This document shows, one piece after another, positions 2,709-15,673 of a stretch of DNA of 54,441 nt (positions within the stretch are counted from its first letter, which is position 1; each line of letters starts with the position of its first letter). Position numbers and translations under genes: made by a program. Where the stretch lies: positions 1-54,441 of the IMG/VR virus record IMGVR_UViG_3300025108_000063; one strand, written 5' to 3'. The notes under the pieces are model-generated. The model was not told where the DNA came from, searched no databases, and worked only from the letters and a program-made list of their open reading frames with translations. The DNA is from a virus.

Positions 2709-3176
2709 ATGAAAATTTTAAGAAAAGTAAAGAGAATTTACGAAAGATATGAGCCTAAAAATGATTATCTAAAATATTGGAAAGTTGTTAAGCAATGGGC
2801 TAAAGTTAAGTACGGTGTAGGTACAGCTGATATTGAAATGATGCTATTCCTATATAGTGAAGGATTGTTTACTCAAAAACAATTTGAAGAATATAATGAG
2901 ATTATGTCTTGGGATAGAAACAGATTCCACAATCTCAAAAAAGATAAATGGATTATTGTTTGGCGTAAACGCAAAGGACGTGAATCAACGTTGTACGAAC
3001 TGGGCTTTAGAGGTAAGCGCTTATGCGCTTCGATTTATAAAAAATTAAATATGGAGGAAACTGTCTCAGAAGATAGAAGACGAAATCCCATATTCGATCC
3101 GAAAGCAAACTACTCTCACAAAGTATATCGTAAGATAATAAAGAAAATGAATAAGGAAATTAAAAAGAAACTATAG
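2709..3176 (+). CDS. Winged-helix-like DNA-binding protein candidate
   Basis: This is a 155-residue basic protein, and the only plus-strand gene inside an otherwise minus-strand region. Residues ~40-110 (LFLYSEGLFTQKQFEEYNEI ... LKKDKWIIVWRKR ... STLYELGFRGKRLCASIYKKL) follow the helix-turn-helix plus beta-wing pattern of MarR-like regulators: a helix pair, then a 'recognition' helix, then the WIIVWRKRKGRESTLYEL hairpin. The C-terminus is a Lys-rich helix. Its stop overlaps the groES stop by 6 bases tail to tail. It could be the regulator of the divergent late promoter next to it. The fold assignment is by eye and the regulatory role is inference. Confidence 0.6.
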   Translation: MKILRKVKRIYERYEPKNDYLKYWKVVKQWAKVKYGVGTADIEMMLFLYSEGLFTQKQFEEYNEIMSWDRNRFHNLKKDKWIIVWRKRKGRESTLYELGFRGKRLCASIYKKLNMEETVSEDRRRNPIFDPKANYSHKVYRKIIKKMNKEIKKKL

Positions 3177-3428
3177 TACAACTACAATATCTCTTTCAGA
3201 TATAATTGTAACTACATCTTCTTCCAACATCATTTTATGACCTGCGTTTTTATCGTAATAAATAACATCATCTTTTGATACAACGGACACATCAGTCCCT
3301 GGAATAACTATTAATCCTTTTTTGTATCTTTGTAAGTTCGTGTCATCTGAAGTCAATAATATTCCTGACTGTGTTTTTTGTTGTTCTTTAATTTCTGTAA
3401 TTACAATGTACTTTCCTACTGCTTTCAT
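3171..3428 (-). CDS. groS: Co-chaperonin GroES
   Basis: At 85 residues this is slightly shorter than bacterial GroES (~95). It begins MKAVGKYIVITEIKEQQKTQSGILL, matching the first GroES strand and the mobile loop (SGILL corresponds to the GGIVL segment that docks on GroEL). It ends with DDVIYYDKNAGHKMMLEEDVVTIISERDIVVVL, matching the usual VLFxxxxGxxixxxGxxylvlxexDIlavl end. It would cap the phage GroEL to fold phage proteins, probably capsid or another large virion protein. It lies 2 bases downstream of groEL, so the order groEL-groES is the reverse of the usual bacterial operon. Confidence 0.93.
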   Translation of the reverse strand: MKAVGKYIVITEIKEQQKTQSGILLTSDDTNLQRYKKGLIVIPGTDVSVVSKDDVIYYDKNAGHKMMLEEDVVTIISERDIVVVL

Positions 3429-3430
3429 AA

Positions 3431-5002
3431 TTATTTTCGTTTCATTGTTACTATTGCGTTTGTACTTAGTATGGTTGTAGCTACACTTACTGCATTTTTT
3501 AGTGCATTCTTTGTAACTTTTGCAGGATCTATAACTCCCATCTTATACATGTCTCCAAATACTTTGTTTTTTACATCATATCCGTAATTATATGGAACTT
3601 TAGAGCAACTACACGTTTTATCTCTTATATTTCCTATATCTTCACCTGCATTTGCTAATATTTGACTAAATGGAGCTAATAATCCTAAATATAACACGTC
3701 ATTAGCGTGTCCATCCCTTAAATTCTCTGCACATCTTACAAGAGCCATGCCTCCTCCTGGTAAAATACCCTCTTCAATAGCCGATCTTACTGCACAAACA
3801 GCATCTTCTACCCTATCATACTTCTCTTTCTGCTCTACATCAGAGTTTCCTCCTACATATATTACACCTACAGCACCTGATAACAGAGCAATACGCTCCG
3901 TAATAAAGTCCCTTTCCTTCTTATCCTTGTTATTATCCTTCTGAACCTTCAATTCATCTATTCTAAGCTTAGCATCTTTACTACTTTTATCATCATTTAT
4001 AATAACAGTACTATCTTTACCTACTATAATCTTATCTGCATGACCCAAATCTTCCATTGTCAACATACCTATGTTGTCTCCCTGTGACTCACTAAAATAT
4101 TTCGCACCTATCGACAAAGCAATATCACTCATAAGCTCATTGGTCTTATATCCAAATGATGGTGGTATAATATTACAAAGCTTTAAATTATTCTGGATTA
4201 CATTGGCAGCTAATGTATTGGTTACATTCTGTGCGCAGTTACCGATAATCAGTAATTTCTTGTTCTGATTAATAATTGGTTTTAATATATTTTCAATCTG
4301 AAGAATATTAGTAATCTCCATATCAGTCATCAAAACACATACATCATCTAATATACATTCATCGTTTCTGTGATTATTGATAAATAACTTAGAACTATAT
4401 CCCCTGTCAATCTTAATTCCCTTTGTTATCTCATAATAAGTCTGGTCAGTTTTGCTATTCTCTACAGTAAGAACTCCATCTCTACCCAATTCCTTGTAAG
4501 CACTAGCAATCATTTTGCCTAAAACAGAATCATTGTTGGCAGATATAGTAGCTACATCACGCAAAGTTTTACCAGTTACCTTTTTAGAAGACTTACCTAA
4601 TGACTTTATTAATTCATCAGTAACATTATTTATATCTCGTATTAATTCAGTCGTATTAATATCAGGATTTTTTTCTATAACACGCATACCCTCCTTTACA
4701 ATAGCCTCCGTTAAAACTATCGCAGTAGTCGTTCCATCTCCTGCAGAAGTTGCAGTCCTCTCAGCAGCCTCCTTCATCATACGTATAGCTAAATTTTCTA
4801 CCGCATCTTCTAAATCTATAGACTTAGCAACCGTAACTCCATCTTTAGTTACCGTTATTCCATGTGTATGATTCTGTGATTCGATTAGTACAGTCTTACC
4901 GAGTGGCCCTAATGTACTTTTAACAGCTTTTGAAATTGTAGTTATGCCGTTTAATAATTTGTCTCTCCCTTCTTGGTCGAAGGATAATTCTTTTGGATTC
5001 AT
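3431..5002 (-). CDS. groL: Chaperonin GroEL (HSP60), phage-encoded
   Basis: The 523-residue length is close to bacterial GroEL (~545). ATP-site motifs are present: LGPLGKTVLI (31-40, for LGPKGRNV), the catalytic GDGTTTA (88-94), and ILPGGGMALVR (around 413) preceded by the D-AVxAxRxAIEEG segment that carries the hydrolytic Asp. The apical domain is more divergent, and the C-terminus ends TNAIVTMKRK, without the GGM tail of bacterial GroEL. It should form a ring that folds phage proteins with the neighbouring GroES. A good Bacteroidota promoter lies 25 bases upstream, and CGACATA-type repeats overlap and follow it, so expression is probably controlled. Divergence from host GroEL suggests a long history in phages. 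Confidence 0.96.
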   Translation of the reverse strand: MNPKELSFDQEGRDKLLNGITTISKAVKSTLGPLGKTVLIESQNHTHGITVTKDGVTVAKSIDLEDAVENLAIRMMKEAAERTATSAGDGTTTAIVLTEAIVKEGMRVIEKNPDINTTELIRDINNVTDELIKSLGKSSKKVTGKTLRDVATISANNDSVLGKMIASAYKELGRDGVLTVENSKTDQTYYEITKGIKIDRGYSSKLFINNHRNDECILDDVCVLMTDMEITNILQIENILKPIINQNKKLLIIGNCAQNVTNTLAANVIQNNLKLCNIIPPSFGYKTNELMSDIALSIGAKYFSESQGDNIGMLTMEDLGHADKIIVGKDSTVIINDDKSSKDAKLRIDELKVQKDNNKDKKERDFITERIALLSGAVGVIYVGGNSDVEQKEKYDRVEDAVCAVRSAIEEGILPGGGMALVRCAENLRDGHANDVLYLGLLAPFSQILANAGEDIGNIRDKTCSCSKVPYNYGYDVKNKVFGDMYKMGVIDPAKVTKNALKNAVSVATTILSTNAIVTMKRK

Positions 5003-9405: not shown

Positions 9406-10635
9406 ATGGAAACACAATTAGAAGAAATGGTATGGTCTAAGGTAATGGATAGACACATACCAAGTGACGAAGCTTACGAAGTTAATGGCGACGTTGTAAC
9501 GAGAGAGTTCAGAGACGAGAACTATCGTCTTACAATAGATGATGATGAATATTACCCTAAAGATGCTGTTTATCTTTGTCAGGTTTCACAAGAGTTCTAT
9601 TCGACTGATGAAGACTTTTCAACCAGTTATTGTGGCGATTACGGACACGAAGAAAGTTTCTGTGATTCCGATTACCGTTGGATTGAAAGAGGAACAGCGG
9701 CAGGACATTGGTTATATTGTGACCACACAAGCTACTGTACCGACATAGACGAAAGTGTTCACGAAAATGATGCGACTTACTGCGATGTAGATGATGAATA
9801 TTATTATGACACCGACAACATGCCAGGCTCAGGATATGAACGTAATGAAGTTGGAAACTATCATTCGTGCAAAGACTATGTAGAAAACCTTAACAGTCCA
9901 TATCATGGACACAATACACAATTCAACATTGGGTTTGAGATAGAGAAAAATGTATTTCATACAGACAATGGAGATGCTACTGACGAAGGTGACCAAGTAG
10001 GTTGGTATGATTTGTTTGCAGGATTCGAGACCGATAGTTCTTGTGGTGTGGAGGCAGTGACTCACATACTGCCCTTAGGCTCTCCTAGAAGTAAGGCACG
10101 ACTCAAGGTTTTCGATATGATGGACGAGGCATCAATGGTAATTAACAGCCCTAAAGATATCACTTGTGGTGGTCACATTACTGTATCTGTAAATGGTATG
10201 ACAGATGGCTATGAATTGGTAGATAAAATGAGGGAGAAGTTAGCCATACTGTATGCACTATACCGATACCGATTGAAACGTAGCTATTGCTGTAGTAACA
10301 AGGGCATAAAGAAAGATAACAATGTCAAGTATGCACCTGTTCACGTCAAGGGTTGTAAGGTTGAGCTTAGGATACCATCGGCAGTAGCCAATGTAAAACA
10401 ATTAAAGTTACGTTATGATTTGATGTACAAGATTATGCACCACTCATTTGAACGCAGGGTACATTTCGAAGTATTTCTTTCAAACATACGTCACATTATC
10501 AAGAAGATGTACAATGGTAATGACCAAAAAGTAGATGCTATATTTGAATTGGCACACCACTTTAGAAGATACTTAATTGTAGAAGAAACATCATCAAATA
10601 TAAATGAATTTATTAATCACTCTAACGAAGAATAA
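9406..10635 (+). CDS. Amidoligase-family enzyme (glutamine-synthetase-fold COOH-NH2 ligase)
   Basis: 409 residues. The C-terminal part (from ~170) has the amidoligase (PF12224-type) signature: NIGFEIEKN (174-182; acidic metal/ATP ligands), FETDSSCGVEAVTHILPLGS (207-226; the D-x-S-C/G-vE block), a CGGHITVSVNG block (254-264) and VELRIP (319-324; last metal ligand E). These enzymes join a carboxylate to an amine using ATP. The N-terminal ~160 residues are very acidic and Tyr/Cys-rich, with repeated YC(D/G) units that may bind metal. The partner gene (10638-11642) begins 2 bases later and carries a glutaminase that could supply ammonia. The substrate (peptide, protein or metabolite) cannot be read from sequence. 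The family is well supported, the pathway inferred. Confidence 0.8.
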   Translation: METQLEEMVWSKVMDRHIPSDEAYEVNGDVVTREFRDENYRLTIDDDEYYPKDAVYLCQVSQEFYSTDEDFSTSYCGDYGHEESFCDSDYRWIERGTAAGHWLYCDHTSYCTDIDESVHENDATYCDVDDEYYYDTDNMPGSGYERNEVGNYHSCKDYVENLNSPYHGHNTQFNIGFEIEKNVFHTDNGDATDEGDQVGWYDLFAGFETDSSCGVEAVTHILPLGSPRSKARLKVFDMMDEASMVINSPKDITCGGHITVSVNGMTDGYELVDKMREKLAILYALYRYRLKRSYCCSNKGIKKDNNVKYAPVHVKGCKVELRIPSAVANVKQLKLRYDLMYKIMHHSFERRVHFEVFLSNIRHIIKKMYNGNDQKVDAIFELAHHFRRYLIVEETSSNINEFINHSNEE

Positions 10636-10637
10636 CA

Positions 10638-11642
10638 ATGTGTATAATTATTATTAAAGACAACAAGAAACAAATTAAGACTGAGACACTAATTGCATCA
10701 TCAGTCAAGAACCCAGATGGACTAGGCGTATTGTGGCTAGACAAGTGGAACGTGACCTATCACGATAGCGCAGACTATATGATACTCAAAACTAAACGAC
10801 CATACATTGCACACTTTAGGTATGCTACGATCGGTGAAGTCAGCAAGGCTAACTGTCACCCATTCGACATCAACAAGGACAACATACTGTTTCAAAATGG
10901 TACAGTATACGGACTAGGTAACAAGAAAAAGACAGACACTCAGCACCTAGCCGAGATACTTTCAGACGTACCACCCAATAGATGGAGAGAAGTGTTGGAG
11001 ATGAATGACTCAAGGTTTGTTACTGCCAACCTAAAGACTAAGAAGTATACGCTATACAACAAGTCTGATTGGACTAAAGTAAATGACATTTGGTACAGTA
11101 AAACAAATGTACTTGACAAGGTATTGATTGGTGTGTATGGCACACTCAAGAGGTATGGTAGTAATTACGACTACCACTTGGCAGACTCTATCTATGTAGG
11201 CAAGGCGAACACTTTAGAGAAATACCCTATGTTGATACAAGGCATACCTTATGTACTTGACAAGCCAGGAGTAGGACACCACATAGATATTGAACTATTC
11301 TTAGTAGACAGGAAGACGTGCCTACCAAGTATTGACAGGCTAGAGGGACACCCCACTTGGTATGAGAGAAGAAAGACAGATGTTATATTAGAAGATATGT
11401 GTACTGTACTTACTCCTTATATATACTTCAATGACACTGTAAAAGATGAGGGAGAGCATCACAAGACATTTACTCAGGAGGTATATGGATTTTATGACAA
11501 TCCTTTGTTAGGTGGAATTGAACATTACGAGTGCAAATGTGCCAACCCTGAGCCTGTATTAGATTACAACGACCATTACTGTGATATATGTTACGGTGAT
11601 ATTATAGAAGACGAACATACTATTAATCAATTTAATTTTTAA
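10638..11642 (+). CDS. Class II glutamine amidotransferase fused to gamma-glutamylcyclotransferase-like domain
   Basis: 334 residues in three parts. Residues 1-~150: Ntn-type class II glutaminase. Cys2 directly follows the start Met (MCIIII); DGLGVLW (27-33), IAHFRYATIG (57-66), NCHPF (72-76) and FQNGTVYG (85-92) match the family motifs. Residues ~164-270: a GGCT/AIG2-like domain with VYGTLKRYG (166-174) and IDRLEGHPTWYERR (232-245), including the expected catalytic Glu. C-terminal tail: CKC (299-301) and CDIC (315-318), a likely zinc knuckle. The glutaminase would release ammonia for the amidoligase encoded 2 bases upstream. The cyclotransferase part would form or remove a gamma-glutamyl-amine product. 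Aravind and colleagues predicted amidoligase gene neighbourhoods with such partners; the fused form here is notable. Confidence 0.82.
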   Translation: MCIIIIKDNKKQIKTETLIASSVKNPDGLGVLWLDKWNVTYHDSADYMILKTKRPYIAHFRYATIGEVSKANCHPFDINKDNILFQNGTVYGLGNKKKTDTQHLAEILSDVPPNRWREVLEMNDSRFVTANLKTKKYTLYNKSDWTKVNDIWYSKTNVLDKVLIGVYGTLKRYGSNYDYHLADSIYVGKANTLEKYPMLIQGIPYVLDKPGVGHHIDIELFLVDRKTCLPSIDRLEGHPTWYERRKTDVILEDMCTVLTPYIYFNDTVKDEGEHHKTFTQEVYGFYDNPLLGGIEHYECKCANPEPVLDYNDHYCDICYGDIIEDEHTINQFNF

Positions 11643-13680: not shown

Positions 13681-14724
13681 ATGAATGTACTATCATTATT
13701 CGATGGCATGTCCTGTGGACAGATAGCCCTCAAGAATCTTGGTGTAAAAGTAGACAACTACTATGCATCAGAGATTGACAAGTATGCTATAAAAATAGCA
13801 AAGAAAAACTTCCCTGACATGATTCATGTTGGGGATGTAACCAAGCTAAGTTATTCTGATTACAGAAAGTGTTTGGTAAGAGAGAAAAGTTCTCAATATA
13901 TACAGGATATACCCAAGTCTAGACGAATAGATCTTATAATGGGTGGTAGTCCATGTCAAGGATTTAGTAAGGCAGGAAAAAACTTAAACTTTGATGACCC
14001 TAGAAGCAAATTGTTTTTTGAGTTTGTGAGGTTAGTTAAAGAATGTAAGCCAAAGTATTTCTTATTGGAGAATGTAAAGATGACAAAAGAACACAGAGAT
14101 ACTATATCAGAGTTCTTAGGAGTTCAACCAATATACATAGACTCAGCACTTGTATCTGCACAAACCAGGAAGAGGTACTATTGGACTAATATACCTTATA
14201 TATTTGCCCCTATAGACCTAGGGGTAAAGCTAAGCGATATTATTCAAACAGAAGGAGAGCTTGAAGGTTCATTAGTTGATGAGAGGATGGTAACAAATAA
14301 AGGTAAAGCCTATTGTCTTACAGCAAGATATGATGGAGCTGTATGGTGGAACAGTATAGAAAGAAGTCAACGAAGTATGATTAGAATAGAAGATAAGGTT
14401 TGCTTTCCTGAAGCCACAAAGAAAGGTTATGCCGCTGCAGGTGTTGGAGAGGGATTAGATCTGTCATTTCCTAACAGTAATACTAGAAGAGGTAGACTAA
14501 TAAAAGAGAAAGCTCATTGCGTTACTACAATCTCACCAAATCAAGGCATCATAAATGAAAAATATAATTGGAGAAAATTAACTCCAATTGAATGCGAGAG
14601 ACTGCAAACAGTTCCTGATAACTATACCGAAGGTGTATCTAATGCACAAAGATATAAGATGTTAGGAAATGGATGGACAGTTAAAGTAATAGAACACATA
14701 TTAAAACAAATAAAAGTTGTATAA
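13681..14724 (+). CDS. DNA (cytosine-5-)-methyltransferase
   Basis: 347 residues with the full C5-MTase motif set in order: motif I SLFDGMSCGQIAL (5-17; AdoMet binding), motif IV GGSPCQGFSKAG (89-100; catalytic Cys in PCQ), motif VI LLENVKM (~126-132), motif VIII QTRKRYYW (~160-167), and motifs IX-X in the C-terminus (LTPIECERLQTVPDNYT and MLGNGWTV). It would methylate the C5 carbon of cytosine in a specific sequence, probably to protect phage DNA from host restriction. The target-recognition region is ~180-290. No cognate restriction gene is present, so it is an orphan phage methylase. Its stop lies inside a 39-base direct repeat that recurs after the next gene. Confidence 0.95.
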   Translation: MNVLSLFDGMSCGQIALKNLGVKVDNYYASEIDKYAIKIAKKNFPDMIHVGDVTKLSYSDYRKCLVREKSSQYIQDIPKSRRIDLIMGGSPCQGFSKAGKNLNFDDPRSKLFFEFVRLVKECKPKYFLLENVKMTKEHRDTISEFLGVQPIYIDSALVSAQTRKRYYWTNIPYIFAPIDLGVKLSDIIQTEGELEGSLVDERMVTNKGKAYCLTARYDGAVWWNSIERSQRSMIRIEDKVCFPEATKKGYAAAGVGEGLDLSFPNSNTRRGRLIKEKAHCVTTISPNQGIINEKYNWRKLTPIECERLQTVPDNYTEGVSNAQRYKMLGNGWTVKVIEHILKQIKVV

Positions 14725-14741: not shown

Positions 14742-14795
14742 AATTTGTAGTATATGAAAAAACATAAATATTAAATTTGTAGTATATGAAAAAAC
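14732..14795 (+). repeat. Tandem 32-base duplication containing promoter and start codon
   Basis: Two exact adjacent copies (14732-14763 and 14764-14795), each with a TAAATTTG -7 element (14740-14747; 14772-14779) and an ATG (14754; 14786). With GTTG at 14716-14719 and 20-base spacing, the first copy makes a good promoter. The first ATG opens only MKKHKY and stops at 14772-14774; the second is the real gene start. The duplicated start could act as a short upstream ORF that damps translation. Confidence 0.8.
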
Positions 14796-15673
14796 ATAAA
14801 GACATTATTGCTTGGTGGTCAGGAGGAGTCACTTCTGCTGTTACATGTAAAATATGTGTTGATAGTTATGGTAAAAAAAGAGTAAGAGTTATCTTCATAG
14901 ACACACATAATGAACATGACGATACATACCGATTTAAAAGGGATTGCGAGAAATGGTATGGAGTTGACATAGAAACCATTAGTAATATAGGAGATAAGTA
15001 CGAGAAAATTCAAGACGTTTGGATAAAGTATAAGTCTTTAAATGTTGCGCATGGAGCTGTATGTTCTTCTGAACTAAAAAGAAATACTCGAGAAAAATGG
15101 GAGAAAAATAACAATTACACACACCAGGCATTTGGCTTTGATATTGATGAGGTTAGGAGGGTTAAAGGAATGAAGTTAAATCATTCTAGAGCTAAACCTA
15201 TATTCCCCTTATTAATGCATCACTATTCAAAAAAAGATTGCATTAACATAATTCAAGATGCAGGAATAGAAGTACCTGTTATGTATAAGATGGGGTTTTT
15301 AAACAACAACTGTTTTAAAACAGGATGCGTTCAAGGTGGGATAGGTTATTGGCAAAAAATGAAAAAAGATTTTCCTGAAAAGTTTGATGCTATGAGTAAA
15401 GTAGAACATGATTTAACAAATCTTAAAGGAAAACCTGTTACAATGCTAAAAGATCAATCAAAAAGGGGAGGATTAGTATTTCTGAAACCACATCCAAAAT
15501 ATCCTAATATAAAAGATATAACAAAGATGAGAGGAAGAGAGCCTAAACCATTGTTTGAATGCAACGGTTTTTGTGGAGTAAACGATTTAGAAAAAAGAAG
15601 TCCTGAAGAACAGGATATAAACTACCAAATAGATATGTTCGATTCTATTTCTGAATTAAATAAAAACAAATAA
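14786..15673 (+). CDS. PAPS reductase / PP-loop (adenine nucleotide alpha-hydrolase) family protein
   Basis: 295 residues. WWSGGVTSAVTCKI (10-23) is a PP-loop (SGGxxS) as in PAPS/APS reductases and ATP-pyrophosphatases. VIFIDTHNEHDDTYRFKRD (32-50) matches the following conserved block of phage PAPS-reductase-like proteins. Cysteines at NNNCFKTGC and CNGFCG in the C-terminal half could bind a metal or Fe-S cluster. Such phage proteins may reduce sulfate, thiolate a nucleic acid or otherwise use ATP; the DndC protein of phosphorothioation is a relative, but no dndA/B/D/E is present. The gene has its own promoter and lies between 39-base direct repeats, so it looks like an acquired cassette (moron). 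Confidence 0.8.
   Translation: MKKHKDIIAWWSGGVTSAVTCKICVDSYGKKRVRVIFIDTHNEHDDTYRFKRDCEKWYGVDIETISNIGDKYEKIQDVWIKYKSLNVAHGAVCSSELKRNTREKWEKNNNYTHQAFGFDIDEVRRVKGMKLNHSRAKPIFPLLMHHYSKKDCINIIQDAGIEVPVMYKMGFLNNNCFKTGCVQGGIGYWQKMKKDFPEKFDAMSKVEHDLTNLKGKPVTMLKDQSKRGGLVFLKPHPKYPNIKDITKMRGREPKPLFECNGFCGVNDLEKRSPEEQDINYQIDMFDSISELNKNK

Follow-up and report, generated by a model that had tools for sequence, protein, structure and literature searches.

Two adjacent genes of the window, a 54,441-nucleotide stretch of viral DNA (IMG/VR record IMGVR_UViG_3300025108_000063), behave as one accessory unit in related uncultured phages. The first gene of the pair (gene 1, 9406..10635, + strand, 409 aa) encodes an amidoligase-like protein, as identified from the open reading frame, fold matches and residue invariance. 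Gene 2 (10638..11642, + strand, 334 aa) starts 2 bp after the end of gene 1 and encodes a class II glutaminase-type domain fused to a GGACT-type cyclotransferase, as identified from the open reading frame, Pfam and AlphaFold2. The positions, the strand and the 2-bp gap are exactly those of the initial annotation, and all of the motifs it quoted are present in the two proteins. We estimate a probability of about 0.5 that the pair constitutes an accessory phage module for amide or gamma-glutamyl chemistry operating through the steps proposed below.

The window derives from a flavobacterial-type phage, with terminase and portal families that match PHROGs. Its terminase is closest to that of phage ctfjg026 (68%), followed by Flavobacterium Elemovirus (44%) and Cellulophaga phages (37-39%). 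A DUF285-repeat-rich protein is encoded near the window start (5-1252, - strand, E 2.3e-82), followed by a GroEL-like and GroES-like chaperonin pair (3171-5002, - strand; PF00118 E 4e-56, PF00166 E 2e-9) that is also found in Elemovirus and in many of the relatives bearing the module. On the other side of the two genes lie a C5-cytosine DNA methyltransferase (13681-14724, + strand, PF00145), which is common to close relatives without the amidoligase pair (e.g. L186), and a PAPS-reductase-family protein (14786-15673, + strand), which also matches the PADLOC SspD model (E 2.9e-13). PADLOC returned no credible match for either gene of the pair, and the signals from promoter and terminator scans were at or under the shuffled background.

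The catalytic domain of gene 1 (residues 169-381; 9910..10548, + strand) was delimited from fold, invariance and profile alignment. It contains the motifs GFEIE (E178, E180), E208/D210/E216, CGGH (H257), R289 and ELR (E320, R322), and displays the GhExE metal/ATP signature as defined for the amidoligases (PMC2588565). The AlphaFold2 model of the protein has a mean pLDDT of 92.9, and residues 169-381 resemble the glutamine synthetase (GS)/YbdK fold with Z scores of 9.2-9.5 (3.6-4.3 A), the best matches being 3fky (Z 9.5) and YbdK (1r8g, Z 9.2 over 194 residues); Z scores of about 9 with 170-194 aligned residues are evidence of fold, not of substrate. Likewise, the closest named matches among the viral structures of BFVD are mostly phage proteins termed "amidoligase enzyme". 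On the basis of the saddle-shaped GS-type fold of the model and the signature residues, gene 1 is placed as a predicted member of the GS/GCS carboxylate-amine ligase superfamily.

Conversely, gene 1 matched no Pfam model. Amidoligase_2 (PF12224) was reached above its gathering score neither by gene 1 nor by its relatives (0/59), and none of these 59 reached any other Pfam amidoligase model; a PF12224 search across phage contigs was uninformative, as its controls gave no match either. As no member reaches a Pfam amidoligase model, the family of gene 1 represents an unrecognised amidoligase branch. A comparison of its profile with four PF12224-type phage ligases gave a probability of only 82%, which together with the divergence from Pfam counts against the ligase reading, and lined up D210/S212/E216, CGGH and ELR. 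E208, D210, E216, H257, R289, E320 and R322 are invariant in 111/111 amidoligase relatives, as are E178 and E180 in all 110 sequences that cover those columns. The catalytic domain is preceded by an acidic, Cys-containing beta-repeat extension (approximately residues 1-165; 9406..9900, + strand), predicted mostly as high-confidence beta units and confined to the subclade of the window, across which the number of Cys residues varies from 5 to 12. The BFVD matches of this region include a "LIM domain containing protein", and by analogy the extension may be LIM-like and metal binding, with putative ligands.

Three segments are distinguished in gene 2, starting with an Ntn domain of the class II glutamine amidotransferase type (residues 2-161; 10641..11120, + strand; C2, R61, H74, N87-G88, D100). 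This is followed by a GGACT/AIG2-like gamma-glutamyl(amine) cyclotransferase domain (residues 162-283; 11121..11486, + strand; YGTLK and a catalytic-type E236) and a zinc-ribbon-like Cys-pair tail (C299/C301/C315/C318; 11532..11591, + strand), which is a putative metal-binding site. The four-cysteine tail was thus correctly called at the outset, and most relatives of the fused protein retain its Cys pairs. The GGACT assignment is firm at the level of the profile (PF06094, E 3.6e-13, 50.6 bits vs a gathering score of 22.8); the YGTL motif is present, and 58/58 relatives match the same model. The Ntn domain remained below the gathering score of both GATase_6 (E 2e-4, 21.7 bits vs 27) and GATase_4 (15.9 vs 23 bits), and a partial alignment of gene 2 to GFAT spans residues 57-99.

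Structural comparison was carried out on an AlphaFold2 model of gene 2 with a mean pLDDT of 90.8. The cyclotransferase domain superimposes on human gamma-glutamylamine cyclotransferase (3jud) with Z 18.9 (2.0 A, 121 residues), and the Ntn domain on the glutaminase domain of GlmS (3ooj) with Z 12.3 (3.9 A, 156 residues) and on EgtC with a gamma-glutamyl substrate (4zfl) with Z 11.8. The glutaminase-site positions are in place (the Cys2 nucleophile, R..T..G, NG and D), and none of C2, R61, T64, H74, N87, G88, D100, Y167-G168-T169 and E236 varies among the 104 distinct fused proteins. The counterpart of E236 in human GGACT is E82 (position counted from the alignment), the residue altered in the 3jud mutant. 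The human enzyme shares the fold, the catalytic glutamate and 31% identity with gene 2 but is a single-domain protein, whereas gene 2 has a glutaminase-type domain and a Cys-pair tail in addition. In combination, the predicted folds (GS/YbdK, GlmS and GGACT) bear out the amidoligase, glutaminase and GGCT calls of the initial annotation, and the invariance of the core residues in 104 fused proteins and 111 amidoligases, together with the predicted metal-site motifs of the ligase, its expectation of intact active sites. Chance motif matches were rejected as an explanation, since they are contradicted by the folds and the residue invariance.

The distribution of the two genes was studied in IMG/VR, where at least 214 stretches encode the fused protein and at least 213 an amidoligase of the gene 1 type; the best 80 of each were analysed. 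The fused state was found in 80/80 of the loci with the fused protein. The ligase lies upstream on the same strand in 72 of these, and the other 8 reach the contig end within 2 kb upstream. The spacing between ligase and fusion ranges from 2 bp, in the subclade of the window, up to nearly 5 kb. So as to avoid selection bias, loci were next gathered through a neighbouring PDDEXK-like marker, which gave 33 loci with at least 7 kb upstream. Both genes were present in 6 of these, neither in 27 and a single gene in none, a distribution expected by chance once in 1,107,568 without phylogenetic correction. Seventeen whole contigs were also examined, of which 15 had no pair close to the marker; none of these 15 carried either gene elsewhere. 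The distance matrices of the fused protein and the amidoligase correlate with r 0.73, compared with 0.53 and 0.55 for each against a neighbouring gene, and the correlation is 0.62 once the effect of the Sak neighbour is removed; as the sequences are related, these co-inheritance figures are guides and not strict tests. The pair is accessory, because neither gene is present in 27/33 marker-picked loci, and L186, a near relative of the window, keeps the flanking methyltransferase and recombination genes without it. The same 27 loci led to rejection of the view that these are core genes of the phage family, an impression that came from the first sample, collected using the genes themselves.

Presence in cultured relatives was likewise rejected, as a profile search of Elemovirus elemoA_7-9A gave no match to gene 1 or gene 2 and tblastn found neither gene in other Flavobacterium or Cellulophaga phages. 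A search of cellular genome contigs gave one match, on a contig of a Cytophagales MAG where the adjacent genes (Sak, PDDEXK, SSB-like, primase) match those of the window phage, and thus no cellular home was found. The plasmid search returned a partial cyclotransferase match only.

The fusion also occurs in a second lineage. Phage C75C1 (OQ984151) encodes the fused protein with a PF12224 amidoligase (E 3.5e-30) about 0.85 kb upstream, and its terminase is absent among the relatives of the window terminase. Of 12 further fusion contigs of the C75C1 type, 10 have a PF12224 ligase upstream, and 2 end 1.2-1.5 kb upstream. Since this lineage pairs the fusion with a PF12224 ligase, two ligase subfamilies and two phage backgrounds accompany the same fusion. 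C75C1 and ctfjg026 (MW202828) are the two GenBank phages with the fusion, annotated in both only as gamma-glutamyl cyclotransferase, and both resemble the window in having an amidoligase upstream of a fused glutaminase-cyclotransferase. C75C1 differs from the window in its canonical PF12224 amidoligase, its gap of about 0.85 kb and the lack of a Cys-pair tail. Co-occurrence in related phages, on which the initial annotation had staked its proposal beforehand, was thus found in 72/80 loci, in the 6/27/0 marker-picked sample and in a second lineage. These data bear directly on the view that the genes drift together by common descent, as degenerate or chance neighbours lacking a joint function. 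This would fit the confinement of all window-type loci to one phage group with a shared order of neighbouring genes, but the active sites are invariant despite 36-60% identity, presence is all-or-none, and the second lineage is unrelated and carries another ligase subfamily; the view is disfavoured and highly improbable.

Two contigs, L096 and L163, initially appeared to lack a counterpart of gene 2, which was rejected, as in each the ligase is directly followed by an unfused glutaminase-type gene. The class II glutaminase-type protein of L096 comprises 247 aa and that of L163 about 300 aa, both with a Cys-pair tail, and L163 also encodes a second ligase, of the window type. In the latter contig (2839-6729), the unfused glutaminase-type gene thus lies between two amidoligases, with no cyclotransferase. 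A GGACT domain was not found on either contig in a search in which the controls were positive. The Methylophilales phages MEP401/402 (Zobellviridae) are described as carrying an amidoligase and a GATase (PMC10580990). MEP402 resembles the window in that gp06 is an amidoligase with a Cys-rich N-terminal part and is overlapped by the GATase gene gp07, whereas a cyclotransferase domain is missing from MEP401/402. MEP402 gp06 (L166 1616-3262) is annotated as hypothetical, although amidoligase motifs and the Cys-rich region are present and PF12224 is matched below threshold. As L096, L163 and the similar overlapping gp06/gp07 pair of MEP402 have both proteins and no cyclotransferase, the ligase and the glutaminase-type protein are probably the basic unit. 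From the arrangement of the sequences, the cyclotransferase domain is probably an optional insertion that separates the glutaminase-type domain from the Cys-pair tail. The "two-gene system" of the initial annotation consequently stands as a genetic unit, while its cyclotransferase proved dispensable.

The constant association of ligase and glutaminase-type domain, even without the cyclotransferase, would also be expected for a glutamine-dependent amidation. In that case the Ntn domain would act simply as a glutaminase and supply ammonia to the ligase, which would form a primary amide on a carboxylate, e.g. in a protein side chain or in the stem peptide of peptidoglycan, and the cyclotransferase would only clear by-products. 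GS-fold ligases are able to use ammonia, and the positions with which GlmS-type enzymes bind free glutamine are invariant in the fused proteins. However, the glutaminase-type domain and the ligase sit on different polypeptides, and this reading gives no account of the fused cyclotransferase, an enzyme that acts on a gamma-glutamyl head whose alpha-amine is free. Such an amidation is a possible reading, albeit not a likely one.

The reading that we prefer, a module for amide or gamma-glutamyl chemistry, was built on the observed gene order, fusion, predicted folds, residue conservation and all-or-none inheritance. According to its fold and invariant residues, gene 1 would activate a carboxylate with Mg-ATP and join it to an amine or ammonia, the likeliest carboxylate being the gamma-carboxyl group of glutamate, whether free or as a residue. 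In gene 2, Cys2 would cleave a side-chain amide, with R61 and D100 presumably holding the alpha-amino and alpha-carboxyl groups of the substrate. Glutamine or a gamma-glutamyl-amine would be the expected substrate, because the domain keeps the positions predicted to bind a free gamma-glutamyl head group. This cleavage could either supply the ligase with ammonia or remove a gamma-glutamyl group: the obligatory pairing of ligase and glutaminase favours direct cooperation, and fusion to a second gamma-glutamyl-cleaving domain favours a removal role. The GGACT domain would, via E236, release the amine from a gamma-glutamyl-amine with formation of 5-oxoproline, a de-capping similar to that of GGACT itself. 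The interpretation in the initial annotation is thus supported in part: its view that the activities make, trim and recycle one modification, with ammonia from glutamine, stays a hypothesis.

The removal step could also stand on its own. Here gene 2 would strip gamma-glutamyl groups from host metabolites or conjugates and gene 1 would cap a phage-made product, a protect-modify-deprotect route drawn by analogy from the logic of EgtA/EgtC or butirosin BtrJ/BtrG. Two observations fit such a route: the Ntn domain matches the substrate-bound structure of EgtC (4zfl, Z 11.8), and NCBIfam links gene 1 weakly to a glutamate-cysteine ligase family of the EgtA type (E 3e-4, well short of the cut-off). 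The EgtA/EgtC system of ergothioneine synthesis resembles the pair in combining a GCS2-type ligase with a gamma-glutamyl hydrolase of class II glutaminase fold, but differs in having no cyclotransferase and a known small-molecule substrate, and the similarity of gene 1 to EgtA is weak. No conserved third enzyme was found among the 80 neighbourhoods, which speaks against the intervening step that such a route requires, and we regard it as quite unlikely.

Separate genes for the same activities are known from other phages. Phages phiEco32, RIO-1 and PSA-HP1 carry a "peptidoglycan modification cassette", for which peptidoglycan modification and a block of superinfection were proposed (PMC5498523; PMC10580990). 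In phiEco32, it comprises gp77 (GGCT), gp80 (ATP-grasp), gp83 (class II glutaminase), gp84 (amidoligase) and gp86 (COOH-NH2 ligase) (PMC5498523). The phiEco32/RIO-1 cassette resembles the window in having an amidoligase, a class II glutaminase-type protein and a GGACT-type cyclotransferase in one region, the counterparts in phiEco32 being gp77, gp83 and gp84; gp77 (4e-16) and gp83 (1e-7) score against the window profile. In phiEco32, however, these are three separate genes in a larger set with an ATP-grasp protein and a second ligase, whereas the window has the fusion and another amidoligase subfamily. By analogy, the pair might remodel peptidoglycan side chains and thereby exclude superinfecting phages; the host cell wall is the candidate target most cited in the literature on phiEco32-like phages (PMC5498523). 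There is a published proposal for phages with amidoligases, ATP-grasp, glutaminase and cyclotransferase (PMC5498523; PMC10580990), and the accessory, all-or-none distribution fits a gene of phage-phage conflict. Still, the published idea is itself a proposal, and neither cassette partner, the ATP-grasp protein or the PF14395 (COOH-NH2) ligase, was recognised by Pfam or PHROGs among the scanned window proteins, a scan that covered the small ORFs in part and in which a divergent ligase could be missed. Superinfection exclusion thus appears a doubtful explanation.

The amidoligase family has been predicted near a glutaminase-like thiol peptidase in proteobacteria or an AIG2 cyclotransferase in firmicutes, and was assigned to the synthesis of glutathione-like peptides or secondary metabolites (PMC2588565). 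The window shares with the family of Iyer, Burroughs and Aravind 2008 the three activities predicted to cooperate and the GhExE signature; in that family the glutaminase or the cyclotransferase is a neighbour, whereas the window has both within one polypeptide. No description of the fused protein, the divergent ligase branch or the all-or-none distribution was found in the literature compared. Priority for the fusion is not certain, because Iyer et al. 2009, which reportedly extended the 2008 neighbourhood predictions, lay outside the literature compared. The initial annotation was right that such neighbourhoods had been predicted computationally (in papers of 2008-2009), and a separate-gene cassette has also been published (PMC5498523). 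Its suggestion that the fused form is undescribed agrees with the literature found, although the form itself is present in hundreds of IMG/VR contigs and two GenBank phages.

One argument against the preferred module is that writing and erasing from the same operon would be a futile cycle unless timing, transport or an intermediate reaction kept them apart, and the 80 neighbourhoods showed no conserved third enzyme. It is conceivable, though rather unlikely, that the pair represents a reversible gamma-glutamyl or amide system, a writer and a two-headed eraser in one mobile unit, which would tag and then untag its target during infection; candidate recipients of such a tag are a host protein, a peptidoglycan precursor or a defence-related metabolite. 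Since both cleaving domains of gene 2 would recognise a gamma-glutamyl head group, the search for a substrate should begin with gamma-glutamyl-amines. Phage amidoligases have been predicted for more than 15 years, and neither a demonstrated substrate nor biochemistry for any family member was found in the literature. The compact two-gene form, with intact active sites in every relative, offers a tractable route to an amidoligase substrate, and the near-identical phage backgrounds with and without the pair provide a natural comparison set.
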